This document shows, in pieces, positions 19,428 to 43,825 of a DNA stretch of 64,000 nt. This DNA comes from a virus. Location: the IMG/VR virus record IMGVR_UViG_3300030116_003118, positions 1 to 64,000 of that record, one strand, 5' to 3'. Positions within the stretch are counted from its first letter, which is position 1, and each line of letters begins with the position of its first letter. The notes under the pieces are model-generated. The model did no database searches and had not been told where the DNA came from. It was given only the letters and a program-made list of their open reading frames with translations. The translations under genes and the position numbers were made by a program.

Positions 19428-19663
19428 TAACCACCTTCCAATTTTGCTACCATTTCATTGATATCTTTCCAATCCATCTTGGCAATATCATCAACGCTAG
19501 TAGTTCCACTACCCATTGTGGGTGTTGGTGTATTTGTGACAACTAAACCTGACTTCATCAGTATGTTGTCATCATTGTAAACAGTTTTTTCTAACTTGCT
19601 TACCTTATCAACTAACTCCTTCAACAGAAGAAGCATTTCATTGTCTGCACTTTCGTCACTCAT
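19424..19663 (-). CDS. Small protein with C-terminal W-tag-like peptide
   Basis: 79 residues from the ATG at 19663 (MSDESADNEMLLLLK...), chosen because GGAG lies nine bases upstream; an ATG at 19672 is too close to it. A leucine-rich helix (LLLLKELVDKVSKLEKTV) suggests a dimeric coiled coil. The last 17 residues, MDWKDINEMVAKLEGGY, copy the tag of the protease-scaffold C-terminus and the N-termini upstream. It may be a minor scaffold or core component. Confidence 0.65.
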   Translation of the reverse strand: MSDESADNEMLLLLKELVDKVSKLEKTVYNDDNILMKSGLVVTNTPTPTMGSGTTSVDDIAKMDWKDINEMVAKLEGGY

Positions 19664-19991
19664 CTTTCTCATCTCCTAAATCTCCTTTGCTCTTTGGATA
19701 AATCATCCCTCGCATTTGGCGATATAGAATCTCATAATCTTTTCTAAGTTCAGATGCAGCCGCTACAAGAGATATGTTTGTCTCTTCTATTTTCTCCATC
19801 TTTTTCTTATCAGACTTATTTACATTAAGAGATTTTATTTCATCCAATAAATCTCCTAACTTGGTAAAGTCTTGTCCCATATATTCTGTTGGCTGAACAG
19901 ATTGTAACAACTTCTTAATTTTCTTCTTTTGCTTTGGGTCAACCTTTGCCAACAATTCACTTTCTTCTTTTAAAATAACTTTTTCCCACAT
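19656..19991 (-). CDS. Coiled-coil protein with N-terminal W-tag
   Basis: 111 residues starting MWEKVILKEESELL (W2, K8), the most promoter-distal N-terminal W-tag copy. The remainder is a highly charged two-helix coiled coil (KKMEKIEETNISLVAAASEL). Overlaps the next gene by eight bases. Likely an internal core or scaffold-associated protein by analogy with the tag hypothesis; no family recognised. Confidence 0.6.
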   Translation of the reverse strand: MWEKVILKEESELLAKVDPKQKKKIKKLLQSVQPTEYMGQDFTKLGDLLDEIKSLNVNKSDKKKMEKIEETNISLVAAASELRKDYEILYRQMRGMIYPKSKGDLGDEKDE

Positions 19992-19994
19992 ATT

Positions 19995-21773: not shown

Positions 21774-21782
21774 TAAATCACC

Positions 21783-21992
21783 TTACCACGGAATATTTTC
21801 GTGTCTCTTATTGTCCAGTTTTTTTGCTTTCTTAAATTGCACAACACCCGGAACATGGTCTGGTTGTTCGCGCTTTAATGTTGCCGGGTCATTTCCGACA
21901 ATATCATGTCTCTTACTGACATCTTTCTTCATTGCATTTACTTCCTTGTTAATCTCCTTAACAAGTTCTTTTTTCTTATCTATTGTTGTCAT
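21783..21992 (-). CDS. Small basic protein
   Basis: 69 residues (MTTIDKKKELVKEINKE...), very Lys-rich with a C-terminal ENIPW. Four-base overlap with the upstream gene. No tag in the standard form and no recognised domain. Could be a DNA-binding internal protein. Confidence 0.55.
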   Translation of the reverse strand: MTTIDKKKELVKEINKEVNAMKKDVSKRHDIVGNDPATLKREQPDHVPGVVQFKKAKKLDNKRHENIPW

Positions 21993-22657
21993 TTTCTTTC
22001 ACTCTCAAGATATTCTATTCCTCTATATTTTATAGGAATCTTTTTACCGCTACTTAATAATTTATCTACTTCTCTCCACTCTTTAAAGTTTATTACAGAA
22101 AAAGAATATGGTACTCCGGGCATTGTATATCCTGTACCTCTTCTTTTATCCTCTGATTTATATCCTGTCTCTCTAACTACATTAAGGTCAAACCAACCTA
22201 GTTTTCTAAAAAGAGGATTTAATTTCTCTATTATGTCATTTTGCGCCCAAGTTCTTAAGTCATCCCAAGTCTGCCATCTTCTGTTAAATTCTTCGCTTGG
22301 AAATGTTGATACTCTTTCTCTATGAAATCTTTGTCTTCCTCCAAAAAATTCACCAGTCATTGCAGGGCGATTGTATCTTTTTGTACTAAAAAACCTATTT
22401 AAAAAATGAAAGAAATGTGCAGGGCTACCAAAGGGTTCGGGTCGTGTAGGTGAATGCCAATAACTTTTACCATATCTTTTTTTAGATGCATTTTTCCAAA
22501 TTGTTGTATAAGCCTCATCTATCTCTTCTTTGTACTTATGCCATTTAGGTTTAAGTTGGTCTAAATCTCTTGAAAAGTCTCTATCATCAAACGGTGAACC
22601 TTGTTCATCTCTTGGTAAACCAACTTCTACTTTCTTAATAGTTTGTTGCCAATTCAT
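21989..22657 (-). CDS. W-tagged basic protein next to portal
   Basis: 222 residues beginning MNWQQTIKKVEVGLP (W3, K8). The body is aromatic and Arg-rich (RRWQTWDDLRTWAQNDI, ...HFFHFLNRFFSTKRYN), which suggests nucleic-acid or protein binding. ATGA overlap with the portal gene puts its dosage near portal. No family recognised. Confidence 0.6.
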   Translation of the reverse strand: MNWQQTIKKVEVGLPRDEQGSPFDDRDFSRDLDQLKPKWHKYKEEIDEAYTTIWKNASKKRYGKSYWHSPTRPEPFGSPAHFFHFLNRFFSTKRYNRPAMTGEFFGGRQRFHRERVSTFPSEEFNRRWQTWDDLRTWAQNDIIEKLNPLFRKLGWFDLNVVRETGYKSEDKRRGTGYTMPGVPYSFSVINFKEWREVDKLLSSGKKIPIKYRGIEYLESERK

Positions 22658-25643: not shown

Positions 25644-27080
25644 CTAAAAATTTAAACCTATCATTCCCGTATTTTGCTCAAATAGAGGCGTTTCAGGCTC
25701 ATCGAATAGTTCCATGTCATCGAGGAGCATAAACGCTTCTGTCGGCGTTTGTGAGGCCGCATTTGCTAAGGCTAGGCCCATAACCAAGTCGTCATGCGCA
25801 CCGACTCCCTCAAACTTACCAGATTGAGTAATTGAGAACATAGATAATTCTTCTAATAGTGCTTGAGTCATCTTTCTGCTGTTATTATCTCCATACGGAA
25901 GATGTAATTTGTTGTTTTCAAAGTTCATTTGTAGATTTAATATAATTTCTTGCTTCTTTCTACGGGTTGTATCAAAATCCCTTACATTTAAGTCGGATAC
26001 AGCCCTTAACTCTTGTGTAAACGCCTTTGCGAATGTATTTGTTTCGTAAAGTATGACTTCCGGCTCAAACACTTGACCAATTAGACGTAATTTATCAATA
26101 TTTTCTCTAAATTGAACATTTTTACTTCTATCTACATGAACAATGCTTTTATTTTTCTCATCATCTACTTCTAAAACCATAATTACGTTATAATCGCCGT
26201 CTGTAGAGATAGCAGGGTCAACACCTACATAATATTTGTATCCTTTATCTTTTCTGTGACCTAATTTAAGAATTAAATCTCTATTTTTTGCATTTTCTAA
26301 GTGTTCTTGTCCAAAAAGTGCTGTTCCTGTTGAAACTGGTATACATAGATACTCCCTAGTAAACTTTAATGAACCAATTTCTGCCTTCCTTTGCATCAGA
26401 GCATCAAAATCCCATCTTTCAGGCCATAAGGGTTCATTCATTGAATCTAAACAGGGATATTTTCTAACTGTATAGGCTTCGTTTTCTTCTAGTTGTGAGA
26501 AAATATCAGTATAAGTAAAAGGAGTCCCTATCATTCTAAGATTAGCAGTGTGGTGAAGTGTAGGAATCATATCTCCGAAGAACCAATCAGTAACTCTTTG
26601 AATACCAGTTAAACTAAACTCTTTCAAAGGGTCATCAATAATAATTTCTTGCGGGTGAAGACCACGAATCTGTGAACCTACTGACCTTTCAAGAATTGAG
26701 TTGCCATTCGTTAATGTTATGTTTCCAATAGCCCATCCTCTTGTTGGTCTAAACTTTTTTAACTGTGGTAAATTAAAATATCTATCTATCTCTCTCATGT
26801 GAACAAGAGTCTGCTTTTGGTTCGATGAAATGTATAGCATCTGATATGGTGGTTCTTGGAACACTAAATTCCAAACTACCCAAGAATGCATAAAAACAGA
26901 TTTTCCGTGGTCACGACTACAGACTATTACGGTTCTATCTGTGTTTGACATAGTATCTAGCCATTCTTGCATATAGGCAGGATACATCATACCTAATACA
27001 TTTTGAAAGAAATAAGGAAATGAATCTTTTGACATTTGCATATCCATCTGATGAGCAAAGTTTAATTCTTCTAATTCCAT
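25644..27080 (-). CDS. terL: Terminase large subunit
   Basis: 478 residues. The ATPase motor shows an atypical Walker A CSRDHGKS at residues 54-61, Walker B E-I-I-I-D-D-P near 145, and a coupling-type RMIGTPFTYTD motif. The C-terminal RNase H-like nuclease begins with G-V-D-P-A-I-S-T-D-G-D-Y-N, whose first Asp is a metal ligand, and continues with YETNTFAKAF (second acidic residue) and a final GAHDDLVMGLALA (third). It packages DNA into the prohead through the portal and cuts the concatemer. One-base overlap with the GNAT gene upstream. No intein or insertion is visible. Confidence 0.92.
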   Translation of the reverse strand: MELEELNFAHQMDMQMSKDSFPYFFQNVLGMMYPAYMQEWLDTMSNTDRTVIVCSRDHGKSVFMHSWVVWNLVFQEPPYQMLYISSNQKQTLVHMREIDRYFNLPQLKKFRPTRGWAIGNITLTNGNSILERSVGSQIRGLHPQEIIIDDPLKEFSLTGIQRVTDWFFGDMIPTLHHTANLRMIGTPFTYTDIFSQLEENEAYTVRKYPCLDSMNEPLWPERWDFDALMQRKAEIGSLKFTREYLCIPVSTGTALFGQEHLENAKNRDLILKLGHRKDKGYKYYVGVDPAISTDGDYNVIMVLEVDDEKNKSIVHVDRSKNVQFRENIDKLRLIGQVFEPEVILYETNTFAKAFTQELRAVSDLNVRDFDTTRRKKQEIILNLQMNFENNKLHLPYGDNNSRKMTQALLEELSMFSITQSGKFEGVGAHDDLVMGLALANAASQTPTEAFMLLDDMELFDEPETPLFEQNTGMIGLNF

Positions 27081-27679
27081 TATTTCTTTCTCCTTAATGA
27101 TGCGTTAATTTTATTCCATTTCTTTGCCATTGGTACAGGTAAATAAATAACAAAATCCTGCCCTTTACTTGCCGCCATTTCTGCATGTTCATCCACGACC
27201 TTCTTTGGTATAAAGTCATAGTAACTTTCTAAGTTATCTGGGTTTGTCATCCAAAATTTTCTCTTGAAAGAATCAGCCCAAGCAGTGCCTCCTAATGTAG
27301 TATTATTGATTAAACCTATTCCGGGCTTAGAAGCCATCTTATCCATTTTTTCATTCTGTAGTTTTCTACTAATTCCTGAAAAACCTTTAGAGCCACCACG
27401 CCTATAATCAGGATGAACTCTTGTACCTGCTAATACCCAATAGGTTCCATAATCTTGCCAACCACTATAACCAATCATTCTATTATTATCCCATGCAGTA
27501 AGATAATCCCCTTCAAAAGTATATGGGTTTAGATTATTAGGACTTTCTCTTCGTGCAATTCTTGGATTATCTGGATTTGATTCGTTCCAAATTTCAACAA
27601 TCTCTTCTTCAGAAAAAGCCCTAACAGGAAAAGTTATTCCTTTGTATCCTGTTTGTTTAAGCAAGTCAAACCAATTCAA
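27080..27679 (-). CDS. GNAT-like acetyltransferase with N-terminal W-tag
   Basis: 199 residues starting MNWFDLLKQTGYKGI (W3, K8). After the tag a GNAT fold is suggested: TFPVRAFSEEEIVEIW at the first strand and helix, DNNRMIGYSGWQDYG, then VLAGTRVHPDYRRGGSKGFSG, where V-H-P-D-Y-R-R-x-G matches the acetyl-CoA-binding motif A (V-x-P-x-[YW]-[RQ]-x-x-G-[IVL]-[GA]). This is a tag joined to a known enzyme domain, which supports the idea that the tag is an address label. It may act on host proteins after injection; that is inference. Confidence 0.65.
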   Translation of the reverse strand: MNWFDLLKQTGYKGITFPVRAFSEEEIVEIWNESNPDNPRIARRESPNNLNPYTFEGDYLTAWDNNRMIGYSGWQDYGTYWVLAGTRVHPDYRRGGSKGFSGISRKLQNEKMDKMASKPGIGLINNTTLGGTAWADSFKRKFWMTNPDNLESYYDFIPKKVVDEHAEMAASKGQDFVIYLPVPMAKKWNKINASLRRKK

Positions 27680-27743: not shown

Positions 27744-28028
27744 TTAATAACCCATGTCCATTTTACTTGGCCCTGACAGTTCTCTAACTTTTTGACAACA
27801 GAGCCTAATTTTTTGAGTTGATTGTAGGTTCCAAAAAGCATCCTTCTCCATCCTAAATTTCTTTTCTATGTAAGCACATAATTCTTTTCTTGTCATTGCT
27901 TCAAAATCAGCATCTATTTTTGTCCCTAGAATTGGCCCTGTTTCTGGTGGCAATCTTGAATCTAAAATGACATATATTCTACCCATCAAATCAATGAGTT
28001 TACTAATTACTTTGTGTCTAAGTTTCAT
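27744..28028 (-). CDS. Small helical protein
   Basis: 94 residues (MKLRHKVISKLIDLMGRIYV...). Basic amphipathic N-terminal helix and three cysteines without a zinc pattern. ATGA overlap with the upstream small gene. Followed by a 64-base gap containing T/A-rich tracts before the GNAT gene. No tag, no family recognised. Confidence 0.55.
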   Translation of the reverse strand: MKLRHKVISKLIDLMGRIYVILDSRLPPETGPILGTKIDADFEAMTRKELCAYIEKKFRMEKDAFWNLQSTQKIRLCCQKVRELSGPSKMDMGY

Positions 28029-28183
28029 TTCTCATCAACTACCTTGTGTTCAAATAAATAATCCGATGCATCATCTACGGATGACCAATCATGTTCATCT
28101 AAATCATATTTATCTGCGACTTCCTCTAAATCATCTATTGCCTCATCAACTGGCTTTTTCTTTACAATGTCAAACCACTTCAT
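28025..28183 (-). CDS. 52-residue W-tagged protein
   Basis: A short gene with product MKWFDIVKKKPVDEAIDDLE... ending FEHKVVDEK. It carries the tag (W3, K8) followed only by about 40 acidic residues. Both ends overlap neighbours by four bases (ATGA), strong evidence of translation. Among the smallest tagged proteins, so the cargo domain is minimal. Confidence 0.75.
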   Translation of the reverse strand: MKWFDIVKKKPVDEAIDDLEEVADKYDLDEHDWSSVDDASDYLFEHKVVDEK

Positions 28184-28602
28184 GCAGTGTAACCTCCGGG
28201 TTCATCAGTTTCTATAAACATCTCAAGAATTTCTTTTCCCTTTTCAACATCTATTTTTTCTGGTCTAGGTACTCCCATCATGTCTACCATAAAATCAGGT
28301 ATCATCTTAAATCCTTCATCTGCCGCATCCCACTTTACTTTGGTTAAATAATGATAAAGAAATTCAGGGTTTGGTTCTGGTACATCAACGACATCGCTTA
28401 TTAATTTATAATTATGTTTTTGTCTCTCTATCATGTCCCTCAGTTTACTAGGAGCCATAAAAGCATCGCCAGTTCTTTCCTCTTGTTTTAATGCTAGTTT
28501 ATACAGAGCCTCTACAAATTCTAAACTCTGTAATGTTTGTTTTACCATCATAAGCCCTACATCTTTTATAGGGTTTCTTTTTGTGATTTCAAACCAACTC
28601 AT
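28180..28602 (-). CDS. W-tagged helical protein
   Basis: 140 residues beginning MSWFEITKRNPIKDVG (W3, K8). The rest is helical (MVKQTLQSLEFVEALYKLALKQ) with an EPGGYTA end. ATGA overlaps on both sides. No recognised domain. Confidence 0.65.
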   Translation of the reverse strand: MSWFEITKRNPIKDVGLMMVKQTLQSLEFVEALYKLALKQEERTGDAFMAPSKLRDMIERQKHNYKLISDVVDVPEPNPEFLYHYLTKVKWDAADEGFKMIPDFMVDMMGVPRPEKIDVEKGKEILEMFIETDEPGGYTA

Positions 28603-34031: not shown

Positions 34032-34439
34032 CTAATCTATTTGACTTCTATCTTGTCTAAATTCACCTGCTTGACCTGCATTACAATCCCACGGTTGAAA
34101 GTTATGAACTGTTTTAGCACTCCTTCCTGAAGTTGGTGACACAAATGATTCTAATATTTCTTTGTGTATATCACATGATTGATGACCACAGTTTCTACAC
34201 TTGTATGTTGCCCTCATGTTACACATTGGATTACGACATTCACATTCATCTTTTGTTTGTGGTGCGACATCAGTGGCATCTTCCGTTGAATCCTCCTGTT
34301 CTGTTCTATCACCCATTTGACGGGTATCTTTCGTTTTACTCCTAGTCCTGTCTAACTTAGGCGGGGGGTCTCGCAATAAAGGTTGGGGGCCACTTGGACT
34401 TCTATCAAAAATCTTAACGATATCCTTCCAATCATTCAT
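34032..34439 (-). CDS. W-tagged zinc-binding protein
   Basis: 135 residues beginning MNDWKDIVKIFDRSP (W4, K9). A disordered Pro/Asp/Arg-rich linker leads to a zinc cluster C-E-C-R-N-P-M-C...C-R-N-C-G-H-Q-S-C-D-I-H (about 80-105), similar to B-box/AN1-type fingers. A near twin is the 41968-42267 gene. Eight-base overlap with the upstream small gene. Confidence 0.65.
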   Translation of the reverse strand: MNDWKDIVKIFDRSPSGPQPLLRDPPPKLDRTRSKTKDTRQMGDRTEQEDSTEDATDVAPQTKDECECRNPMCNMRATYKCRNCGHQSCDIHKEILESFVSPTSGRSAKTVHNFQPWDCNAGQAGEFRQDRSQID

Positions 34440-34608
34440 ATTTGAACCTCTTATTTAATGCGTCTTTTCTCCTATTACAACCGCAGTCTTTACCCGTCTT
34501 TTCTGAAACATAATCAACTGCTTTCTTTATTCCTGTAGCAGTAGTAATTCTTTCAATAGTATCTCCTAAACCTTTATCTTCTTTTAAAAGTTTATCTTTC
34601 CAACTCAT
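34432..34608 (-). CDS. 58-residue W-tagged protein
   Basis: A short gene: MSWKDKLLKEDKGLGDT... to CNRRKDALNKRFKYE. The tag is slightly longer (W3, K9). A C-x-C-N-R-R cluster near the C-terminus may bind metal or DNA. Its stop overlaps the next start (ATGAATGA, eight bases). Starts after GGTTACAATG with a GAGAGG sequence about 5-10 bases upstream. Confidence 0.7.
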   Translation of the reverse strand: MSWKDKLLKEDKGLGDTIERITTATGIKKAVDYVSEKTGKDCGCNRRKDALNKRFKYE

Positions 34609-34619: not shown

Positions 34620-34805
34620 CTATGCATTCTCTTGTTGAAATTCCATCTCTCTTAACATATCAGGAGTGCAATCGTGATTAGCAAAATCTTCTTCGTTATC
34701 ACTTTCATAACCACATAATTGACAACGATACTTATCTTCTTGAACACCGTGTTTAAAATTACCTAATTCGTATCTTTTTGCCTTTAGCATATCTTGCCAA
34801 CTCAT
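34620..34805 (-). CDS. W-tagged C2H2 zinc finger
   Basis: 61 residues: tag MSWQDMLKAKRYELG (W3, K8) followed by a classical finger C-Q-L-C-G-Y-E-S...F-A-N-H-D-C (C2HC spacing close to C2H2). An example of tag plus a single minimal domain. Two bases from the upstream gene's stop. Confidence 0.7.
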   Translation of the reverse strand: MSWQDMLKAKRYELGNFKHGVQEDKYRCQLCGYESDNEEDFANHDCTPDMLREMEFQQENA

Positions 34806-34807: not shown

Positions 34808-35128
34808 TTATAACCTCTCAAATGTTCCTAATGTTGGTTGTCTAGGGTCAGGTACTTGCGTTTTTACTTCGGCTAATGTGGTCTGTGTTTTAGGAACTTT
34901 AGGAACCTTTTCTAATGCTCTTAATTGAGAAGTCATTTGCCCTGCGTTAGATATTATTCTATTAATCCACCTATCTTCTATTTCTTTGGCTTCCATACTA
35001 AGCCCCTTTCTTTCTAATACGTTCATAAATGAATCAATCTTTTCAAATTCATCTTTTACATTGTTCCATCGAGGGTTCTTAGAAAACCTCATCAATGGTT
35101 GTCTTTTAACTATATCTTCCCAATTCAT
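34808..35128 (-). CDS. W-tagged helical protein
   Basis: 106 residues beginning MNWEDIVKRQPLMRF (W3, K8). Two helices (EFEKIDSFMNVLERKGLSM, then MTSQLRALEK), then a Pro/Thr-rich tail. ATGA overlap with the upstream gene. No family recognised. Confidence 0.6.
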   Translation of the reverse strand: MNWEDIVKRQPLMRFSKNPRWNNVKDEFEKIDSFMNVLERKGLSMEAKEIEDRWINRIISNAGQMTSQLRALEKVPKVPKTQTTLAEVKTQVPDPRQPTLGTFERL

Positions 35129-36204
35129 GTTGTTCTTGGCTCCCTTAAAAAATTATTTAAATCTGTAAGTGCAGTAGTTAGGGCTTCTTCCCTTTGTTCT
35201 CTTCGGGTTTCATAATCTTTCATTTCTTGTGCTGTTGGCCCTGCTTCTCTCGCTTCTGTTTTTCTATCTTCTTCAACATCTTTGTCTTCTTCTTGTTGTA
35301 ATTCATTTAATAACTTAGCAGACTGTTCAGATATGTTTCCTGATGCCCTCTGTCTTTCTAAATTTTGAATTAGTTTTTGATTTGATGCCCTTCTTTGTTC
35401 AGCAGTTAATGTAGCCAATGGTTGGTTTGCTTTAAATCCGGGTTGTAATCCTGCTTCTTGTGCTTCTGCTGATGTCATCGCTGGTTGTCTTTGTTCTGTA
35501 GCATCTGTTGGTTTTCCTCTAACAGTTTGAACATTTCTTCCTAAAGTCTGTCTCCATGTTTCTCCTATCTTTCCACCAGAACCTATTCTTAATCTTTCTA
35601 AAGGAGATAGTTTTGTTTCGCCTCTTCCTTGAACTGCTTCTCTTTCTGCGCCTCTAACGTTTCCAAACATTCTATCTTGTCTTTGAGGGTCATTAACATA
35701 ATCACTTACTGCTTGTCGCTGTCTTGCATTTTCTTCTGCTTCTCTTACTTTTGCCCTATCTCTTTCTATTTTCGCTTTGCCTTGTTGAGTGTCAACTCTT
35801 GCTTGTCTTTCTCTTAGTTTTTGTTTTCTATCAATAGCCGCCTGTTCCCTCTTTCTTTCTTGTTCTTTGGCTCTTAATTGTCTTTGATAATCAGCCCTAT
35901 CCTTTTGGTCTTCTTGTTCTTTTTGTCGTTGTTCAAAGAACTTAAAATTTTCATCTTGTTCTTTTCCTCTTGCTTCGTCTGCTTGAGCAGATAATTCAGA
36001 ACCTCTTGATTCAAGAACATTTTTCCTTTGTTGTTCTTTCATCTCTTTTGCCTTGCTTTCTTCTACTCCTCTTTGATATCTTCTTTGTGCGCTATCAGTA
36101 GATATTTTCTTATCTCGCTGTTTTATCTTTCTTCTACTGCCAGCAACAAACCCCGGTTTCATAGGGGCTTTAGCAAGTTCAAACCAAGCAGCAGTTGCGT
36201 TCAT
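35125..36204 (-). CDS. W-tagged long coiled-coil, Arg/Gln-rich protein
   Basis: 359 residues. The tag sits a few residues in (MNATAAWFELAKAPMKPG; W7, K12). The body is an extreme Arg/Gln/Glu-rich coiled coil (QRQLRAKEQERKREQAAIDR, about 50-190), then a disordered section. High positive charge with length suggests DNA organisation in the capsid. Some of the low-complexity could be a hypermutable segment. No family recognised. Confidence 0.6.
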   Translation of the reverse strand: MNATAAWFELAKAPMKPGFVAGSRRKIKQRDKKISTDSAQRRYQRGVEESKAKEMKEQQRKNVLESRGSELSAQADEARGKEQDENFKFFEQRQKEQEDQKDRADYQRQLRAKEQERKREQAAIDRKQKLRERQARVDTQQGKAKIERDRAKVREAEENARQRQAVSDYVNDPQRQDRMFGNVRGAEREAVQGRGETKLSPLERLRIGSGGKIGETWRQTLGRNVQTVRGKPTDATEQRQPAMTSAEAQEAGLQPGFKANQPLATLTAEQRRASNQKLIQNLERQRASGNISEQSAKLLNELQQEEDKDVEEDRKTEAREAGPTAQEMKDYETRREQREEALTTALTDLNNFLREPRTT

Positions 36205-36208: not shown

Positions 36209-36523
36209 TCACCTTTCTTTTTCTCTTAGTTTATTTTGCCACGAAGAATCAAAAAATTCTGGTGAGGCTCTATCATCTGGTTTACCACCGAATTGCGCCC
36301 CTCGCATCTTAGGCATCTTTGTTGCCTTTTCTTTATCCCTTACAAGTTTTAATCTATATAATACTACAAACTTATTACAGTCGTCACAAACTCTGCCATC
36401 AATTAAAGGTCTACCATTGTTTCCAAATTTTCCGTATGGTTTACCACACAAAGCACAGGTTTTACCTCTGTCTTCCATGTCATCATTTTGTCTGACTGTT
36501 TTGAAAATATCATCCCAATTCAT
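36209..36523 (-). CDS. W-tagged zinc-binding protein
   Basis: 104 residues from the ATG at 36523 (MNWDDIFKTVRQND; W3, K8), preferred over an upstream in-frame GTG because it gives an ATGA overlap with the upstream gene and the tag at the N-terminus. A zinc site C-A-L-C-G...C-D-D-C-N-K (about 24-52) is followed by a helix and an acidic/basic tail. Confidence 0.65.
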   Translation of the reverse strand: MNWDDIFKTVRQNDDMEDRGKTCALCGKPYGKFGNNGRPLIDGRVCDDCNKFVVLYRLKLVRDKEKATKMPKMRGAQFGGKPDDRASPEFFDSSWQNKLREKER

Positions 36524-37179
36524 GCCATTTTCTCCTCCATCTTTCGTTTCACATCTAACCAAACTTGTGGATGATTTTGTGCTAATACCTCTTGAACAAT
36601 CTGCATTTGCGCTACTATGATTGTATCCTGTCTCTTATGAACTAACTTGCCCTTAAACTCCATAAGATATCGTAGACTCTCTCTAATCTCTTTTGCTAGT
36701 TTAGTTAAACTATCTATGTATTTAGGATGTAATGGCTCATCGCTATCGAAAAGCGTATCTATTTTCATTTCTAACCGTGTTATATTTTTAGACAGACTCT
36801 CAATTTCGTCTACCTCCTTCACCGCTATTATATTTGCCGCAGACTTCTGAACCAATGGTTGAAGATGTTTCCTCATGTGTCGCTTTACTTGTTCTTCTGA
36901 ACATTTCAAAAGCATTGAAACACCTTTTGGTGTTACCGAACCTTCACTTAATTCTTTCTCTAAATGACCTCTTAACTCATGCGTACAAAAGGCACACCTC
37001 GGATTAGATGCATCAACATAATCTCCCATATGATTTCTTTGATGCCTTGCTGATGTTCCGCTAGGCCAATCCATTTGCCTATCCAAATCATCAGGCGCAA
37101 TAGCCATTGTTTCTAATTGCGCTTCTAAATCATCACGGTCTTCGTGATTACATAATTTACATCGTCTTCTCTTTACCAT
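36520..37179 (-). CDS. Zinc-binding, possibly DNA-binding protein
   Basis: 219 residues from the ATG at 37179 (MVKRRRCKLCNHEDRDD). Two zinc knuckles of the same design, C-K-L-C-N-H and C-A-F-C-T-H, each followed by a short helical domain with conserved R-x-x-R-N-H-M / K-R-H-M-R-K-H endings, suggest an internal duplication. A coiled coil (ESLSKNITRLEMKIDTLFDS) completes it. Small terminase subunits can have HTH plus coiled coil; this zinc version is a candidate. It lacks the W-tag. Confidence 0.55.
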   Translation of the reverse strand: MVKRRRCKLCNHEDRDDLEAQLETMAIAPDDLDRQMDWPSGTSARHQRNHMGDYVDASNPRCAFCTHELRGHLEKELSEGSVTPKGVSMLLKCSEEQVKRHMRKHLQPLVQKSAANIIAVKEVDEIESLSKNITRLEMKIDTLFDSDEPLHPKYIDSLTKLAKEIRESLRYLMEFKGKLVHKRQDTIIVAQMQIVQEVLAQNHPQVWLDVKRKMEEKMA

Positions 37180-38342
37180 GCTAATACACTCTTCCAACTC
37201 TTTTTAACTTCTTTCTTTTTCTTTTCTACAGGTTTAGGCTTTGCTACCCCCGGCATGAATACAGTTTCTTTACCGGGTGTTCTCTTACACTTACCTGTTA
37301 AAATGGCTAGATTTTTTGTCTGCCTTCTTGAAATGTTTACTGAAATCCCTTTTACTTCTCCTATGAACTTATCATAGTCTGCTACTCTTTTAACAGTCTT
37401 ACTGTCTTTTACACCAATATCTATAAATGTAAATGCCTTGAGCCTATTGTTAACATGGGTGTCTCTGAACATACCTGTTGTCTTATTAATGCCCCAACCG
37501 GGAGCCTGTGGTGTTCCAACGCATTCTGCCATGTATTCCTTGATGGCATCTATAGTCATCAATTCTGGAGCAGTTACGCCTTTTCCAGAATCCACAATCT
37601 TTAGTTTCAAATGCTCAAAACTAACATCTTCCTCTAATGCCTTTACAGTTTCACTTAGAATATAAACTAAACCATTGCTAACCAATTGTTGCTTTAAGAT
37701 TATACTCTTTTTAACTTCATATAACGTACCATCACCTGCAAACAATGCTTGCCACATTGGAGGCTCGGCAGTATTTTTACTTGTATTATACCAATCAGAA
37801 GAAACCGCCTTTATTGACTCCTCTTTTCCTCCAAACAATTTTGCTTTTAGATTTCTATATTTAACATAATCAGTGGTTCTATAATGACCATATACTTCTT
37901 TAGTATCTGTCTCTTCATCATAGTCTGCATTCTTTCTATTTACCTTTCTAAAAATAGGTACTGTGAAAACAATGTTTCTTGGGTCTGCTTCGGTATTCTG
38001 CATGTTCTTTAATTTAGTATATACCTTAGTAACATTCTTTTTATCTTCCTCAGTTATACCATCTGTTAAATCTAACAAAGCATCCAGTAACTCCACTACG
38101 TTACCTGCACCGTCATCTAACGGGTCATCAGTATATGGCCTAGCAACTTGTGTATCTCCATGTGCGGCAACTAAATCTAATAATGTTTTATCAGAAGTAA
38201 TTCCCATTTGCTCTCCACTAACACTACTACATTGGTCTTTCCATTCTTCATAAGCCTCCTTAAACTTAGAAGAATCAAAAGTTTGTGTTCCCTGAGAGCC
38301 GTCTATAGAGACTCCAACATTTGCCTTCTTTTCTTTTGCCAT
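37173..38342 (-). CDS. Virion-module protein with C-terminal W-tag-like peptide
   Basis: 389 residues. The N-terminus (MAKEKKANVGVSIDGSQG) lacks the tag; instead the C-terminus reads EVKKSWKSVLAW after a Lys-rich linker, with W383 followed by K-S-V-L. The body is alpha/beta with a central helix-rich region (LKQQLVSNGLVYILSETVK). Its 3' end overlaps the next start. The peptide at the opposite end supports a movable address label rather than a shared domain. Confidence 0.6.
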   Translation of the reverse strand: MAKEKKANVGVSIDGSQGTQTFDSSKFKEAYEEWKDQCSSVSGEQMGITSDKTLLDLVAAHGDTQVARPYTDDPLDDGAGNVVELLDALLDLTDGITEEDKKNVTKVYTKLKNMQNTEADPRNIVFTVPIFRKVNRKNADYDEETDTKEVYGHYRTTDYVKYRNLKAKLFGGKEESIKAVSSDWYNTSKNTAEPPMWQALFAGDGTLYEVKKSIILKQQLVSNGLVYILSETVKALEEDVSFEHLKLKIVDSGKGVTAPELMTIDAIKEYMAECVGTPQAPGWGINKTTGMFRDTHVNNRLKAFTFIDIGVKDSKTVKRVADYDKFIGEVKGISVNISRRQTKNLAILTGKCKRTPGKETVFMPGVAKPKPVEKKKKEVKKSWKSVLAW

Positions 38343-38587
38343 TACTCTTCCTCTTCATCATTATCCATTGTGTGAATAGATAGGTCTTTCTTTCTATTAT
38401 CCACACCCCCTTCATCATCTAGGTTTTGCGACATACCCCCTGCTACGGCTGTTGCACCTGCACCTATTATTGGAGCGATAACTTTCTCCAAATCTTTCTT
38501 CTTCTTTCCGTATAATGGTCTTGCCTCTATACCCCCTGTATTAGACATGACTGCACCTGAATCTTTTATTACATTCCACCACTTCAT
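38342..38587 (-). CDS. Small W-tagged protein with Gly/Ala hydrophobic stretch
   Basis: 81 residues beginning MKWWNVIKDSGAVM (W3, W4, K8). A hydrophobic APIIGAGATAVAGG segment (about 37-50) could insert in a membrane, and the C-terminus is acidic (DNDEEEE). One-base overlap with the upstream gene's neighbour. No family recognised. Confidence 0.6.
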   Translation of the reverse strand: MKWWNVIKDSGAVMSNTGGIEARPLYGKKKKDLEKVIAPIIGAGATAVAGGMSQNLDDEGGVDNRKKDLSIHTMDNDEEEE

Positions 38588-38793
38588 AGTTTTTTTACCT
38601 CCTTCAATAAATCTGCATAGTAACTGCTTTTTCGATTATAAAATATTCTTACTAATTTTACTTTGTCGTTTGCTCCCATAAATATAGGGTCATTTTTCTT
38701 AACACCATATTCTTCCATTTGGCGAATTTCCTTATCTGTTTTGATTTCCTCTAACTGAACATCATACTTTTGTTTGAATATTTTAAACCACAT
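38584..38793 (-). CDS. Small W-tagged protein
   Basis: 69 residues starting MWFKIFKQKYDVQ (W2, K7), ATGA overlap with the downstream gene. The body has an RIFYNRKSSYYADLLKEVKK tail. No recognised domain. Confidence 0.6.
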   Translation of the reverse strand: MWFKIFKQKYDVQLEEIKTDKEIRQMEEYGVKKNDPIFMGANDKVKLVRIFYNRKSSYYADLLKEVKKL

Positions 38794-38794: not shown

Positions 38795-39463
38795 CTATTC
38801 TTCTCCTTCTGGTAGTTCTGGTAATTTCTTAAGTGCTTTAACTATTTCTTTATATGCAGGATGTTTAGTAAATAATGTAATGTAAAATATCTTATCATCC
38901 TTTGTAGGTGGCTTGAATTTATAAGGTTGTGGTGGTCTTTCTGTAGAAGTATCTTTAGTTATTTTAACAGAAGTTCTTTCTTCTTCTTCTTCTTCTAACC
39001 CCATAGCATCATAGTATGCTTGACGGTCTCCTTCTTCCCAAAAATCAAATGTAACTAATTTTGGTTTCCCCATAAACTTTAGATTTTTATTTGCTAACTC
39101 TAGCCCAAATTTTGCTAAATCTCTAACTACTTCTCTTAATTTATTTTTACCAGCAGAACCAACATGTGACGGGTGAGTATTATATGTGAATTCATATGGC
39201 TCATCTGCATTAAAATTATCTTTTATCTGTTTCATGGTAAAGTTATCTTTAGATTGATTTAACATTGTTGGAGATAAAGTTTTGAGACCTATCCAAGCAA
39301 GCGGTAATCTTCCGCTTCCTCTACCTTCCATTGTATACCCATCACCTGTTGCTTTAACAATGTCTATCATATTAGGTCTACTTTCATAGTTTTCAATAGC
39401 CTCATTTATTTCTGATTCAGTTGGCATCAAACGCTCTCTTTTAAGAAGGCTTTCCCACATCAT
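38795..39463 (-). CDS. W-tagged alpha/beta protein
   Basis: 222 residues beginning MMWESLLKRERLMP (W3, K8). Contains two long mixed segments (EPYEFTYNTHPSHVG, LKFMGKPKLVTFDFWEEGD) and an acidic EEEEE stretch. An enzyme is possible, with an H-x-x-H-like NTHPSH in the middle. ATGA overlap upstream. Not recognised. Confidence 0.6.
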   Translation of the reverse strand: MMWESLLKRERLMPTESEINEAIENYESRPNMIDIVKATGDGYTMEGRGSGRLPLAWIGLKTLSPTMLNQSKDNFTMKQIKDNFNADEPYEFTYNTHPSHVGSAGKNKLREVVRDLAKFGLELANKNLKFMGKPKLVTFDFWEEGDRQAYYDAMGLEEEEEERTSVKITKDTSTERPPQPYKFKPPTKDDKIFYITLFTKHPAYKEIVKALKKLPELPEGEE

Positions 39464-40188
39464 CTTCTTCTCACCCCATCTAAATCTCTAAGTTGTTTCT
39501 TCCATCTTGGTCTTTTTTTCTTAGGAGAAACTTGTTCATCCTTCCAATCTCTATGTTTTTCTCTATATCTTTCAGATGGCTTCATTTCAGAAGGAGCCAA
39601 TTTACCTTCCATCCTAGCACCCTCTTCTTCATCAATAGTTAAATCTTCATTGTCTTTCATGTAAGTTGTTTTACACAATTGCCATTGTTCTTGAACATAC
39701 TTCATTCCATCTAAATTCATAATGTCTATACCAAAGAGAGTTATGTCCTCCCCTCTATCTGGTTCCATTAAGTTGTTGATAGTTTTACAATCATAGTCCA
39801 TAATTGTACGGAATACTTTCTTTCTTCTTGCAGGAGTTAGTTTGTAAAGATTTTCATTTTCATTCATATATTCAATAACTTCTTCTAATAATAATTCTTT
39901 TGCCCCTTCACAGCAAGGGTCATCATCTGGATTTACTTGGCCGTCTTCTGCCATTGTAAAACTAGGAGAAACCCTACTAATAATATCTTTAGACATTCCA
40001 CCCCTTTGACTGTATTCTTCCTCTTCATCATCATCAGAAGAAGGCGCACCTCCCCCGCCTCTATTTGGGCCACCGCCTCCACCGCCAAAACCGCTTTGTC
40101 TATCTAATTCAGATTCTCTTTCCCTATTAACCCACTTACCAGTTTTAGGGTCTTTTGTCCTAACCTTTAGAATCTTATTCCAATCCAT
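39460..40188 (-). CDS. W-tagged protein with Gly-rich linker
   Basis: 242 residues beginning MDWNKILKVRTKDPK (W3, K8), then a Gly-rich tract (FGGGGGGPNRGGGG) and acidic stretch as a flexible linker, then a helical domain (NPDDDPCCEGAKELLLEEV...). The linker between tag and domain is what a cargo tether would need. C-terminal 45 residues are Lys/Arg-rich. Confidence 0.6.
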   Translation of the reverse strand: MDWNKILKVRTKDPKTGKWVNRERESELDRQSGFGGGGGGPNRGGGGAPSSDDDEEEEYSQRGGMSKDIISRVSPSFTMAEDGQVNPDDDPCCEGAKELLLEEVIEYMNENENLYKLTPARRKKVFRTIMDYDCKTINNLMEPDRGEDITLFGIDIMNLDGMKYVQEQWQLCKTTYMKDNEDLTIDEEEGARMEGKLAPSEMKPSERYREKHRDWKDEQVSPKKKRPRWKKQLRDLDGVRRR

Positions 40189-40190: not shown

Positions 40191-40550
40191 CTACACCTTG
40201 TAATATGTTTTCTTTCCGTTCCTTCCAACGCCGCGTTCTTGTTTTGTTGTAATGTTCATTGTTTCTAATCTCTTTCTTAAGAAAGACGTAAGGTTTTCAT
40301 CACTATCTTTTAACTTGGGATTTTGTTCTCTTAGTGATTTTATTATATCGTCTATTGTATTCCAATCGTTATTAGTTTGTAAATATTTTGTAATCTGTGA
40401 TTCTAAAGAATCATAAAATTCAGTGCTTCTTTTTCCGTGTTTCTTTCTTAGATAATCTAAATGTTTCATATCATCAGACTTTGCATACTTTTCAGCAAGC
40501 ATCTCAAACTCTTTGAGTTCATCAGATTTAATTAATTCAAACCAAGTCAT
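40191..40550 (-). CDS. W-tagged winged-helix-like protein
   Basis: 119 residues beginning MTWFELIKSDELKEFEM (W3, K8). The C-terminal 70 residues (TIDDIIKSLREQNPKLKDS... TSFLRKRLETMNITT... KKTYYKV) look like a winged helix with a final beta hairpin. Possible DNA-binding cargo. Confidence 0.6.
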   Translation of the reverse strand: MTWFELIKSDELKEFEMLAEKYAKSDDMKHLDYLRKKHGKRSTEFYDSLESQITKYLQTNNDWNTIDDIIKSLREQNPKLKDSDENLTSFLRKRLETMNITTKQERGVGRNGKKTYYKV

Positions 40551-40554
40551 TCAA

Positions 40555-40830
40555 TCACCAATCTCTACACGCCATACATCTAGCAGAATAATCTCCTTTT
40601 CCGCACGTTGAACATTTATGTCTTGCTCTAAAGGATTTCTTTCTCTTAGTGTTTCCACTCTTACCTGTCACTTTAACTCCTGATTGACCCCAATGAACTT
40701 TCTTATACTTGCCTTTCTTTCCTGATGGAACACAAGCCATCCATTTCTTTCCACTTCTTGTTGATTTGGTTTTACCTGTTCTTTTGGTACACCTACCAGA
40801 CTTACACAGGTTATCAAACCAAGCATCCAT
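40555..40830 (-). CDS. Basic Cys-rich protein with W-tag variant
   Basis: 91 residues from the ATG at 40830 (MDAWFDNLCKSGRCTK; W4, K10). I reject an upstream TTG. Extremely Lys/Arg/Gly/Ser-rich, with a C-S-T-C-G...C-M-A-C zinc ribbon at the C-terminus. The KKVHWGQSGVK...KSFRARHKC segment resembles a recurring small basic phage protein family whose function I do not know. Probably binds DNA. Confidence 0.6.
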   Translation of the reverse strand: MDAWFDNLCKSGRCTKRTGKTKSTRSGKKWMACVPSGKKGKYKKVHWGQSGVKVTGKSGNTKRKKSFRARHKCSTCGKGDYSARCMACRDW

Positions 40831-40831
40831 T

Positions 40832-41200
40832 TTATTCAATCCTTGTAGTATCCTTACTTAAATGTCTTAAGTATTTATCATCTAATTCATAGAAGTGAAA
40901 TAGTTTTTTACTCTTGCCTTCTACATGTTCTTTACCAGACATTAAAGTTCCATCGGGGTGTTTGTGGGTTTCACCAGTCCACTGAACAGGTTTACCATCT
41001 TCAATATAGAAATGTCTTTCTCCCTTTCCTTTCCTAAGATTCTTAAAATCTTCTCCCGTTATTTTACCATCATCATTGGTGTCAATTTCATGCTGGTCAC
41101 CAACGAGTTTTTTCTCCTCCATTACAACAACAGGCCCGTATGTTTTACACGGATTTTGCCCACAGCCGCAATGTCTCTTTATTACTTCTTCCCAAGTCAT
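40832..41200 (-). CDS. W-tagged EF-hand-like protein
   Basis: 122 residues beginning MTWEEVIKRHCGCGQNP (W3, K8). A calcium-loop motif D-T-N-D-D-G-K-I-T-G-E-D-F (about 39-51) matches an EF-hand or dockerin loop, and a Cys-rich C-G-C-G-x-x-P-C sits after the tag. The domain after that (KHPDGTLMSGKEHVEG) is beta-rich. Calcium-binding cargo is a reasonable inference. Confidence 0.65.
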   Translation of the reverse strand: MTWEEVIKRHCGCGQNPCKTYGPVVVMEEKKLVGDQHEIDTNDDGKITGEDFKNLRKGKGERHFYIEDGKPVQWTGETHKHPDGTLMSGKEHVEGKSKKLFHFYELDDKYLRHLSKDTTRIE

Positions 41201-41460
41201 CTTTTTCCTTTTCTCCTTTTATATGTTTTACACGCTGCACATGTTGGTCTACATCTTCTCTTTTTACCTTTTGAAGCATCTTTTCTACCACAAGGTTTAG
41301 GCCCACCCTTTCTTCCACAAGTTGAACAATCAATCCATCCTCCCTGTGTTTTACCTCCTTTGGTTTCTTTTCCGCCTCTTCTTGAAAACCATCCATGTAA
41401 TCCTTCATCTTTTTCGCGCTTGAATTTGTCTCCGCCTTTAACTACTTCAAACCAACTCAT
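41197..41460 (-). CDS. Small basic Cys-rich W-tagged protein
   Basis: 87 residues beginning MSWFEVVKGGDKFKRE (W3, K8). A GLHGWFSRRGGKE module is followed by a W-I-D-C-S-T-C-G...C-G-R...C-R-P-T-C-A-A-C cluster. This G-L-x-x-W-F...C-G-R...C-R-P layout resembles a small uncharacterised family common in phages; here it is joined to the tag. ATGA overlaps on both sides. Confidence 0.65.
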   Translation of the reverse strand: MSWFEVVKGGDKFKREKDEGLHGWFSRRGGKETKGGKTQGGWIDCSTCGRKGGPKPCGRKDASKGKKRRCRPTCAACKTYKRRKGKR

Positions 41461-41642
41461 TTTGATTTACCCCAATTAGCACAACCTACCTTTCTACAAC
41501 GCACTACTGCACCGGAAGCATAAGCAGAAGGCCAAACTGAATATCTTGCTTTTACCTTTCTAGTACAGCAATCATCTGTGTTTTTCTTTTTCTTACGCCT
41601 TCGCGCTTTTTTCTTCTTGGCCTTTACAACTTCAAACCACAT
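41457..41642 (-). CDS. Small very basic W-tagged protein
   Basis: 61 residues beginning MWFEVVKAKKKKARRRK (W2, K7). A polybasic run of about 14 residues follows the tag, then a Cys-rich C-C-T-R-K and R-C-R-K-V-G-C-A-N-W end. Likely a DNA-binding internal protein by charge. Confidence 0.65.
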   Translation of the reverse strand: MWFEVVKAKKKKARRRKKKKNTDDCCTRKVKARYSVWPSAYASGAVVRCRKVGCANWGKSK

Positions 41643-41956
41643 TATTTCTGCCCCACATATAAAAACTTCATACCATTGCGTTCATAGATTATTCGCATAT
41701 TACCTAGTCTAGCCTCTCTTTTGAGAAATGCCCTTAATTCTCCATCAGTAGGCATAGCCCTTCTAAGAGGAGATTTTGGTTTACCGGAAGCATCTAACAC
41801 TCTACCTGCGGCTCTTTCTTTGTTGTCTTTTTCAATAGCAGTTCTAACCATAGACATTATTTGTGCTACGTCTAATGGCCTGTCAACATACTTAATGGTG
41901 TCTGAAACAATTTGATGTAGTTGTTTTTTCTTTTTTACTATATCTTCCCAACCCAT
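41642..41956 (-). CDS. W-tagged winged-helix-like protein
   Basis: 104 residues beginning MGWEDIVKKKKQLHQIV (W3, K8). The rest has a winged-helix pattern (VDRPLDVAQIMSMVRTAIE, DGELRAFLKREARLGNM, then strands RIIYERNGMKFLYVGQK). A putative DNA-binding cargo. Confidence 0.65.
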   Translation of the reverse strand: MGWEDIVKKKKQLHQIVSDTIKYVDRPLDVAQIMSMVRTAIEKDNKERAAGRVLDASGKPKSPLRRAMPTDGELRAFLKREARLGNMRIIYERNGMKFLYVGQK

Positions 41957-41967
41957 AATTTAGCACC

Positions 41968-42267
41968 TCATAGTTTTACCATGTTATTGTGACCATCCAT
42001 GCCACTGTCTTTATGCTCATCACACCATTGCGCTCCACATTCAGCACAAGCCCACGTTGCTTTATTTTTACAACCTCTGCCAAAAGGTTGCCAAGAGGAA
42101 CACGCATCTTTTGGGAAATCTGCAATGTTAAAATCTGCCATAGTGTCTTTACCAGTCCTACGCTGAAAACCCTTAAACTCCTTAGGTTTCTTTTCTGGTG
42201 TTTTTGGGTCAGGCTTTTTCCCCCCTCTATTCGGATTAAATACTTTAACGAGTTCTTCCCATGACAT
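41968..42267 (-). CDS. W-tagged zinc finger protein (B-box/AN1-like)
   Basis: 99 residues beginning MSWEELVKVFNPNRGG (W3, K8). The C-terminal finger C-S-S-W...G-C-K-N-K-A-T-W-A-C-A-E-C-G-A-Q-W-C-D-E-H-K parallels that of 34032-34439, including the conserved K-A-T-[WY]-x-C and C-D-x-H spacing. The two genes look like paralogs. Confidence 0.7.
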   Translation of the reverse strand: MSWEELVKVFNPNRGGKKPDPKTPEKKPKEFKGFQRRTGKDTMADFNIADFPKDACSSWQPFGRGCKNKATWACAECGAQWCDEHKDSGMDGHNNMVKL

Positions 42268-42271
42268 AGGG

Positions 42272-43825
42272 TTACCTCCAATCCAGCATAGGAAGCAGTT
42301 TAGTCTTAAGGTCTGCGGGCAAGTTGGTATTGCTATAGAACAGATATCCTAATTTTAACACCATCTTGTCATTCTTGCGTATGCCCAAAGTATTAATCAA
42401 AACGTCACTAGAACTTGCCTGTGCCTTTTTCCACGCATAATATCTTACAATATAATATTGGTCATCTATTCTGGTTTCAACGGTTTTCTGCCTCCATTTG
42501 CGGGGCTTATCAAATTGAGTATCATATTTATTTTCTAAGTCTTCAATAACCATTAGTTCTCTTGGCCTGAGTTCTTTCTTCCATTTATCATAATCACCGA
42601 CTCTTTTATACCAGCCCTTCATATTGCCACTTAGAATCATATCTGCTCTTGAGACTACATAAGCCTCCCTTCCTGCACTTGGGTCTAATGTTCTTTCAGG
42701 TACATCTTCTGGAGATTTTGTTTTTGCTTTTTTACCACTCCATAAATCACCGTTTTCATCTAACGGCCCAAAGACATCTTTTTTACCAAAGGGTTCATTG
42801 GTGAGTTTTCTAAGTGCAATACAAGCAATTATCTCTGGAATATCATCTATAAATTTATAATTAGTAAAATACGGTTGAGCAATAGGATTTTCAAAATTAC
42901 TGCCGCTTTCAGTCAAACCTAACTGTCTTCTAACTTTAGGGTCATCCGCTTGCTTTTTTCTTTCTTCTTCAATTAAATTAAGAGCATCTTGCATTTTATC
43001 ATTAATGCCAAAAATGTTTATTCTAGAACCCATATCTTTTTTCATTTTATCCCAGTAATTTGACATTTCTTTTCTACACTTATCATCTCTTAATCCTTCT
43101 GTAGTATATGCTTCGTGAACATCTTCTATTTTGGTATCTGAAAACAATTGTGATTCAGGTTCATCTTCTCTTCCAAGACCGGGGCCAGCCGCAAGTGCTG
43201 TATTTAAATTACCTACCTGTTTACCCATTTTATTATAATACTGTAATAACCTACCTGTTAACCACTCGGCATATTTATCTAAATTTCCTTCTGGTGATTG
43301 AGCATGCATAAACATTTTTAACGCTAGAGAATATCTTATATTGTAATAATCCTGACTATCATTTAATTGACCCTGACTTTGAGACCTATCTCGCTCAGTA
43401 TCCCTAAAGAACCATCCATAATGTAGCCTATTAGCAAACTGATGGAAAAAGGAACTTACACTTGGATGTTCTATATCTCCCTCCATTTCATTATCTTTCA
43501 TTATCTCAATTAAATCTCTAACATCCATAAAACTATTAGGAAGTACATAATCACCCTGCCTCTCTAATATAAGATTTAATACCTTTGTCTTCCATTCGGA
43601 ATTAAGTTGGTCGGTGTTTCTACCACGAAGAAAAATCGAAGCATCAAAATACGGTCTTTGCAAATAACTAAAAGGAGAGTAATTAAAAATTCTTTGTCCT
43701 CTTAATATCTGAGATAATGCTTCTACTGATGATGCATAATATTGGCTTACATTAGAAGGAATATATATTTTCTTTATCTCATCTTTCTCATCAGTAGGAA
43801 TTCTTGCTATTTCTCTCCAACTCAT
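42272..43825 (-). CDS. Large W-tagged protein, first large gene of the operon
   Basis: 517 residues beginning MSWREIARIPTDEKDE (W3, R8; the only clear tag ending in Arg). Mixed helical body, with a repeated aromatic pattern (FANRLHYGWFFRD; RKWRQKTVETRIDDQYYIV). Its ATG overlaps the stop of a 31-residue membrane peptide gene. Function unknown. Confidence 0.6.
   Translation of the reverse strand: MSWREIARIPTDEKDEIKKIYIPSNVSQYYASSVEALSQILRGQRIFNYSPFSYLQRPYFDASIFLRGRNTDQLNSEWKTKVLNLILERQGDYVLPNSFMDVRDLIEIMKDNEMEGDIEHPSVSSFFHQFANRLHYGWFFRDTERDRSQSQGQLNDSQDYYNIRYSLALKMFMHAQSPEGNLDKYAEWLTGRLLQYYNKMGKQVGNLNTALAAGPGLGREDEPESQLFSDTKIEDVHEAYTTEGLRDDKCRKEMSNYWDKMKKDMGSRINIFGINDKMQDALNLIEEERKKQADDPKVRRQLGLTESGSNFENPIAQPYFTNYKFIDDIPEIIACIALRKLTNEPFGKKDVFGPLDENGDLWSGKKAKTKSPEDVPERTLDPSAGREAYVVSRADMILSGNMKGWYKRVGDYDKWKKELRPRELMVIEDLENKYDTQFDKPRKWRQKTVETRIDDQYYIVRYYAWKKAQASSSDVLINTLGIRKNDKMVLKLGYLFYSNTNLPADLKTKLLPMLDWR

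Follow-up and report, generated by a model that had tools for sequence, protein, structure and literature searches.

A short tryptophan tag on unrelated late proteins of a magrovirus-like virus combines two motifs of its head-assembly proteins

Introduction

Why should 25 late proteins of one virus, with otherwise unrelated bodies, begin with nearly the same eight residues? The question is raised by IMG/VR virus record IMGVR_UViG_3300030116_003118, of which we analysed positions 1 to 64,000 (the window; 64 kb out of an 84.5-kb record). Between positions 19,656 and 43,825 of the window, 25 late-strand genes start with an eight-residue label of the form MSW-x-[DE]-ILK (fuller consensus M-S-W-[FEQK]-[DENS]-I-L-K), hereafter the W-tag. 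A first-pass annotation, made from the letters alone, had taken this peptide for an address label for virion loading, comparable to the capsid-targeting sequence (CTS) of bacteriophage T4. Our analysis points the same way. That the W-tag loads proteins into the virion is, in our judgement, very probable. The fuller reading, a capsid-targeting sequence in which the tryptophan half would dock and a Peptidase_S78 protease would then cut after the lysine, we hold to be quite likely; the cut itself, taken alone, is fairly likely.

A shared N-terminal tag in one late gene block

The minus strand of the window carries the late genes: tail genes at 1.9-13.6 kb, followed by those for the major capsid protein (MCP; 13983), prohead protease (15403), portal (22654) and terminase (25644). 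The N-tagged genes are listed here with their starting residues and body lengths in amino acids (aa).

42272..43825, minus strand: cargo candidate, 517 aa, MSWREIAR
41968..42267, minus strand: 99 aa, MSWEELVK, Cys-rich
41642..41956, minus strand: 104 aa, MGWEDIVK
41457..41642, minus strand: 61 aa, MWFEVVK, polybasic
41197..41460, minus strand: 87 aa, MSWFEVVK, basic, Cys-rich
40832..41200, minus strand: 122 aa, MTWEEVIK, weak EF-hand match
40555..40830, minus strand: variant, 91 aa, MDAWFDNLCK, DUF5754
40191..40550, minus strand: 119 aa, MTWFELIK
39460..40188, minus strand: 242 aa, MDWNKILK
38795..39463, minus strand: 222 aa, MMWESLLK
38584..38793, minus strand: 69 aa, MWFKIFK
38342..38587, minus strand: 81 aa, MKWWNVIK
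36209..36523, minus strand: 104 aa (from the second ATG), MNWDDIFK, zinc-finger-like
35125..36204, minus strand: 359 aa, MNATAAWFELAK, coiled coil
34808..35128, minus strand: 106 aa, MNWEDIVK
34620..34805, minus strand: 61 aa, MSWQDMLK, C2H2-like
34432..34608, minus strand: variant, 58 aa, MSWKDKLLK
34032..34439, minus strand: 135 aa, MNDWKDIVK
33174..34022, minus strand: 282 aa, MDELWEKVLK
31148..33169, minus strand: 673 aa, MTWETVLK
28180..28602, minus strand: 140 aa, MSWFEITK
28025..28183, minus strand: 52 aa, MKWFDIVK
27080..27679, minus strand: GNAT-like, 199 aa, TTG start, MNWFDLLK
21989..22657, minus strand: variant, 222 aa, MNWQQTIK
19656..19991, minus strand: variant, 111 aa, MWEKVILK; its cargo family is the most widespread

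The strict pattern ^M.{0,5}W..[ILVMF].[KR] fits 21 of these starts, and with the four variants (19656, 21989, 34432 and 40555) the total agrees with the 25 tagged late proteins that the first-pass annotation had counted between 19.6 and 43.8 kb. The examples it quoted lie where it placed them, its positions being the low ends of minus-strand genes. Its literal pattern, M-x-W-[FE]-x-[ILV]-[ILV]-K, proved too narrow and fits only 10-11 of the 25. Its domain guesses held in part: DUF5754 in the 40555 protein scores above the Pfam cut-off, and the GNAT (E 0.0046) and EF-hand (E 0.0023) matches fall below theirs.

The label is present in the window virus and in all relatives examined (80+ contigs, several of them genomes of ~95 kb). 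Over all loci we collected 472 distinct tagged proteins, with bodies of 52-820 aa. That these bodies are unrelated, as had been claimed, is borne out by their division into 196 BLAST families, a number to be read as a maximum because distant homologues could have landed in separate families. For 131 family representatives, Pfam, PHROGs and NCBIfam gave almost no matches. In named phages, no homologues of the GNAT-like protein (27080) were found, and DUF5754 gave two weak partial matches.

The W-tag is far beyond chance. Tagged starts among genes of at least 60 aa number 17, 11, 13, 10 and 7 in this genome and four relatives; shuffled N-termini of the same five genomes gave an expectation of 0.1-0.2, with a maximum of 2-3 in 1000. 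No internal methionine in these genomes is followed by the tag (0 of 647, 674, 603, 780 and 691; ~3,400 in total). The tag is essentially confined to the late strand, in one block. An even spread over early genes and unrelated genomes, which the first-pass annotation had named as evidence against a label, is not what we found: early-strand genes carry it in 0/55, 0/47, 0/61, 1/43 and 1/58 cases (none in the window genome), and sites in GTDB genomes are scattered. On the late strand itself, the 19 genes of the window genome for tail proteins, MCP and protease are all untagged.

Selection acts on the protein rather than the DNA, since all six leucine codons are in use at the fourth position after the tryptophan (+4); isoleucine at +3 is written with three codons. 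Codon 2 is often AGT, AAT or ACT, serine being almost always AGT, and 16 of the 25 window starts read ATGA. Such starts fit stop-start overlap, which may explain the Ser, Asn or Thr at codon 2, and they favour reading the peptide as a property of gene starts at the nucleotide level, be it for translation initiation, for stop-start coupling, or as an N-degron or leader. We give that explanation practically no credence: besides the leucine codons, genes of the same layout outside the block lack the tag.

Nor does common descent account well for the pattern. For the view that tagged genes are diverged paralogues that kept their first codons, real arrays of paralogues can be cited: locus L239 holds seven adjacent tagged cargo genes at 2186-7990 (..LKNIQIS[SG]QRT[SG]S[KR]DY..), a local cargo expansion. 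Yet the range of body lengths, the number of families, the sharp end of conservation past the lysine and the switching of the tag from one end to the other in orthologues make a leftover of duplication highly improbable as a general explanation. Recurrent independent gain of the tag, as originally suggested, is probable. Within a family the tag is retained. Among 15 homologues of the 673-aa protein at 31148, which share 25-54% identity with the window copy, K8 is invariant and W3 nearly so. Relatives of the 592-aa protein at 19995-21773 begin with MSFMDVLKAK, MNFMEILW or MDFLDGFLIR, which suggests that the tag may tolerate Phe in place of Trp.

The two halves of the tag recur in head-assembly proteins

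Both halves of the W-tag have counterparts in three untagged structural proteins encoded nearby.

15403..16650, minus strand: prohead protease (Peptidase_S78) with acidic linker, coiled coil and W tail
16591..16608, minus strand: putative protease site 1, F-S-I-L-K↓S
16138..16152, minus strand: putative protease site 2, F-D-I-L-K, directly past the S78 domain
15406..15450, minus strand: candidate C-terminal docking tail of the protease, MDWGEIHNFIAQYEN
19424..19672, minus strand: scaffold-like coiled-coil protein, 82 aa, with LMK↓S mid-protein and a C-terminal W tail
19550..19567, minus strand: putative cut site of the scaffold-like protein, N-I-L-M-K↓S
19427..19477, minus strand: candidate C-terminal docking tail of the scaffold-like protein, MDWKDINEMVAKLEGGY
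13983..15392, minus strand: MCP (PHROG 24667, E 1e-20)
15306..15323, minus strand: putative MCP cut site at residue 28, N-A-L-L-K↓A

The protease was identified by its match to PF04586 (40.6 bits against a gathering score of 21; E 3.8e-10); H66, S122 and S124, putative catalytic residues, are invariant in 19 sequences including those of haloviruses. It has no PDB match by sequence. A structure model, reliable for helices only, contains a long helix at 311-389 and a tail helix from W403, so that the protein looks like a protease-scaffold fusion, with a predicted order of S78 domain, acidic linker, long helix, linker and tail helix.

The first half of the tag, W-x-[DE]-I, copies the C-terminal tails. 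The protease ends in M-S-W-[GS]-[DE]-I-H-N, and W-x-[DE]-[ILV]-[HN] occurs in 67/67 distinct sequences. The scaffold-like protein ends in M-[DES]-W-x-[DE]-I-[HN], with W-x-[DEQ]-[IV] within the last 22 residues in all 83 BLAST homologues. The second half, I-L-K or more broadly [IL]-[LM]-K, equals the putative cleavage motif. It occurs in the protease directly before the S78 domain (site 1, F-x-I-L-K↓S-D; 67/67) and directly after it (site 2, F-D-[IV]-L-K; 67/68), in the scaffold-like protein ([LI]-L-M-K↓[SA]; 82/83 homologues) and at about residue 28 of the MCP (N-[AST]-[LV]-L-K↓[SAG]; 54/54). Divergent magroviruses keep both elements, with N-D-I-L-K↓S in the MCP, E-F-A-V-L-K↓G in the protease and a protease tail of E-M-S-W-E-E-L-N.

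The docking tails lack L-K and the cut sites lack W; the two occur together only in the cargo tags. It is this union, more than any other feature, that argues for docking followed by cutting. Because they share the tail motif, tagged proteins would be expected to dock where the scaffold-like protein and the protease dock. We infer that this would be the growing prohead, most likely the inner face of the MCP shell. During maturation the protease would then cut past the lysine, as it would in trimming the MCP and the scaffold, and the cargo would be released into the interior of the head. The match of both halves, together with the movement of the tag in orthologues described below, lends strong support to the address label first proposed.

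A different destination was also considered. The tag could address its carriers to another viral complex, such as a replication factory, the host RNA polymerase or a membrane, with the likeness to head proteins being coincidence or reuse. Tagged cargo includes GNAT-like, zinc-finger, KH and helix-turn-helix-like matches, which could act in the cell. This seems very unlikely to us, given that both halves are invariant in protease, scaffold and MCP and that the tagged genes lie among head genes on the late strand.

Tags at C-termini and at domain junctions

One protein of the block lacks the N-terminal tag and carries a tag at its other end.

37173..38342, minus strand: 389-aa protein, C-terminal tag KSWKSVLAW (tag at 37176..37202)

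About 25 of 26 homologues of this protein end in a W-[RKQE]-[EDST]-[IVM]-[IML]-K-like peptide, a few of them without the lysine, and W383 is one of eight invariant residues in the family alignment. The modelled protein has a folded body, a disordered linker (373-380) and a helix (383-388) that starts at W383. A structure search returned no PDB match, and from BFVD viral homologues only.

The GNAT-like gene, which adjoins the terminase gene, is N-tagged (MNWFDLLK) in the window's clade. In most relatives a W-x-x-[ILVM]-[ILMV]-[KR]-like peptide sits at the C-terminus rather than the N-terminus; under a lenient pattern, which 137 of 3,203 other genes also fit, this holds for 32 of 40 single-domain members. 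Where the GNAT domain is fused to a second domain, a tag-like peptide lies at the junction: KKWFDILKFVP in locus L220, and QWFALVKAQC before a DUF5754-like domain in locus L073. In total we found 31 C-terminal tags against 3 expected. The tag thus moves between the two termini, and C-terminal and mid-protein tags exclude explanations tied to translation starts; together with the codon degeneracy, they refute a start-codon or RNA-level feature as the sole cause.

Two regions of the window encode untagged late proteins, at 28599-31151 and 36520-37197. Their C-terminal ends, which are strongly conserved, read Y-[FH]-[LIV]-K-[AG]-x-[FY]-R-like in the first and VWLDV[KR]x[KQ]MEEK[LM]Q in the second, and resemble parts of the tag or of the cut site.

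Is the tag cut after the lysine?

Conservation ends at the lysine, which speaks for a docking-and-cleavage signal: family-level information is high at W (4.3 bits), at the two hydrophobic positions (2.9 and 2.5) and at the lysine, W+5 (4.0), and drops to 0.5-0.7 bits at +6/+7 and then to about 0.2-0.4. The residues that follow the lysine also bear on cleavage. Proline is absent directly past it (0/472 proteins; at family level 0/196 against 11 expected, p about 1e-5); at the two positions after that, its frequency is normal or raised. Alanine is enriched 2- to 3-fold directly past the lysine. One residue further on, aspartate is in excess (p about 4e-8), where it matches the K↓S-D of protease site 1 and so supports cutting.

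Several points weigh against the reading as a docking-and-cleavage signal. The patterns used to recognise tags fix W, +3, +4 and +5 (K or R), so that the information values at those positions are inflated. Lysine still accounts for 79% when the pattern does not demand it. Related viruses are non-independent samples. The residues past the lysine in cargo are mixed (K, A, E, N, R and others); the MCP, protease site 1 and the scaffold have S, A or G there, and protease site 2, with E, M, Q or A, is the sole mixed structural site. The lysine is missing from a number of C-terminal tags, including that of the 37173 protein, which ends in SWKSVLAW, and cutting may therefore not be universal. The catalytic domain of the protease is poorly modelled (mean pLDDT, the model's confidence score, about 49). 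And the 19424 protein, which we read as the scaffold, would owe that role to its size, coiled coil, position and tail.

Some of these observations would suit a loading tag that is not cut. The whole eight-residue helix, lysine included, would bind the prohead lattice or core and stay in the mature virion, much as an encapsulin peptide does. The mixed residues past the lysine and the missing lysine of the 37173 protein fit such a tag, as do the models, in which its C-terminal tag forms a short helix preceded by a disordered linker and a helix likewise begins at the tryptophan of the protease tail. We consider this unlikely, for three reasons: I-L-K is identical to the K↓S motif that three structural proteins carry without exception, and the protease and scaffold tails lack L-K; proline is excluded only directly past the lysine; and in fused cargo the tag sits at a domain junction, where a cut makes sense.

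If the W-tag is a docking and cleavage signal, what becomes of the freed cargo? Delivery into the host is an even call, and speculative. Slightly less likely than even, in our view, is an open cargo system in which any gene that gains the label, at either end or between domains, would become a virion passenger, each virus delivering a fast-changing set of ~10-25 proteins along with its DNA.

Comparison with known systems

The T4 CTS, found on IPI, IPII, IPIII and Alt and processed by gp21, is likewise a short propeptide at one end of head proteins that are unrelated in other respects. Its residues 4 and 7 serve targeting and residues 8 and 10 processing, and it alone is enough for foreign proteins to be loaded (PMC9026906). 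The W-tag resembles it in joining a targeting half to a processing half, and in a protease consensus common to MCP and scaffold, although the cut sites here are inferred. The differences are several. The T4 CTS is cut after Glu, whereas the W-tag has Lys and Trp, a different sequence and a Peptidase_S78 protease. T4 has four cargo proteins, and here there are about 25 per genome. The T4 CTS is N-terminal, and the W-tag also occurs at C-termini and between domains. Finally, unlike in T4, the protease and the scaffold end in a tail that matches the targeting half. By analogy, the W-tag would work like the T4 CTS and would not be a member of it by sequence, having no Glu at the cut and extending beyond the N-terminus.

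In giant phages such as SPN3US (protease gp245), several head and ejection proteins have N-terminal propeptides with one cleavage motif, and the protease itself has a propeptide at its C-terminus that is proposed to direct it to the prohead (PMC7411985). The most abundant substrates there carry long propeptides (124-130 residues) with a T4-like motif, in contrast to the eight-residue Lys tag described here.

Encapsulin cargo-loading peptides are likewise short and movable and recruit unrelated cargo inside an HK97-fold shell. An encapsulin is not a virus, however, and the shell here is built from the MCP of a tailed virus, which also has a portal, a terminase and a protease. Encapsulin peptides are not known to be removed by a maturation protease.

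In herpesviruses the protease (assemblin) and the assembly protein have a C-terminal tail in common, which binds the MCP, and the protease cleaves on either side of its own domain. The virus studied here is similar in that one kind of tail ends both protease and scaffold and that putative cut motifs lie on both sides of the S78 domain; unlike in herpesviruses, protease and scaffold are separate genes. We know of no cargo tags of this kind in herpesviruses.

In the haloarchaeal Druskaviridae HVTV-1, HCTV-1 and HCTV-5, the lysine before S or A is still invariant at MCP residue 28 (K↓A) and in the protease (K376↓S377), but both the W-tag and the W tails are absent.

The accessible literature on these viruses, which leaves subscription papers such as the original magrovirus and HVTV-1 virion papers outside the search, holds no mention of such a motif. 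If the reading is correct, no capsid-targeting system had been recognised in archaeal viruses before this one, to judge by the literature searched, and the tag would offer protein packaging a loading signal that is both compact and movable. Magroviruses have been described as widespread and possibly among the most abundant marine viruses (PMC10160649). The tagged proteins are almost without recognisable function, and the tag assigns a testable role, virion cargo, to many late unknowns by sequence alone. It also leads to predictions of where the mature forms of MCP, scaffold, protease and cargo begin or end.

Affiliation of the virus and distribution of the tag

The window probably belongs to a magrovirus-like tailed virus. 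Beyond 46 kb its plus strand carries replication genes, for family B DNA polymerase (PolB), clamp loader (AAA), XPF-type nuclease, ATP-dependent ligase and ribonucleotide reductase. The 84.5-kb record, its relatives of 92-103 kb, which are frequent among marine contigs, and its own PolB, clamp loader and ATP-dependent ligase agree with the features by which magroviruses (Magrovirales, viruses of Poseidoniales), tailed archaeal viruses of about 90-100 kb, are recognised. No named reference magrovirus genomes were found in the collections searched. The nearest cultured or named relatives found are the three Druskaviridae above (portal ~30%, protease ~33%, MCP homologous), and in published MCP and portal trees these haloviruses fall among magroviruses and other marine archaeal viruses (PMC8651126). 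It is this link and the gene content that underlie our assignment. From the literature alone, the host is probably a member of Poseidoniales.

At 139 of the 147 IMG/VR sites where the exact DNA pattern ATGAGTTGGNNNGANATHHTNAAR occurs, it coincides with an open reading frame (ORF), and two or more tagged ORFs are present at 83 of the 119 loci. In GTDB genomes the same pattern gave scattered single sites; an ORF starts at only 36 of these 80, and two or more tagged ORFs are present at two loci. One GTDB locus (L345; NZMJ01000167.1 in G021) lies in a metagenome-assembled genome labelled Maricaulis that has five magrovirus-type protease matches, and the bin is therefore contaminated with archaeal virus contigs. 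The protease described here is encoded in 11 of 12 tag-rich records. The twelfth, G017, has tags but no MCP, protease or portal; it ends just past the terminase and in tail genes, and by gene order appears to be a magrovirus fragment from which the portal-MCP region is absent. A tagged 184.7-kb contig, IMGVR_UViG_3300021958_000021 (loci L223 and L228), was considered as a different virus and rejected, as it holds two magrovirus proteases; it is probably two virus genomes joined, or a chimera.

Other features of the window and its relatives

A second ATP-dependent DNA ligase (836 aa, with extra domains) is encoded at 16690-19200 of the window, in the head cluster between the scaffold-like gene and the protease, and is untagged. 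ORFs related to it adjoin the protease in relatives, and the ligase of the replication block is a separate gene (L002, 1374-2918). An HNH-endonuclease-like ORF occupies 24304-25629, in the portal-terminase interval (PHROG 5046, E 1e-4), and a tRNA-Leu (TAA) gene lies at 50866-50952 in the early region. Head-region proteins of the Druskaviridae (HVTV-1 genes 113, 115 and 116; HCTV-1 genes 106 and 109) share a module of approximately [KR]VY[VI]xSPxEAPExVxVQxGxxGGxYY, located at 17369-30847 of L184 and 19831-31949 of L185, which could be that lineage's own head-targeting module.

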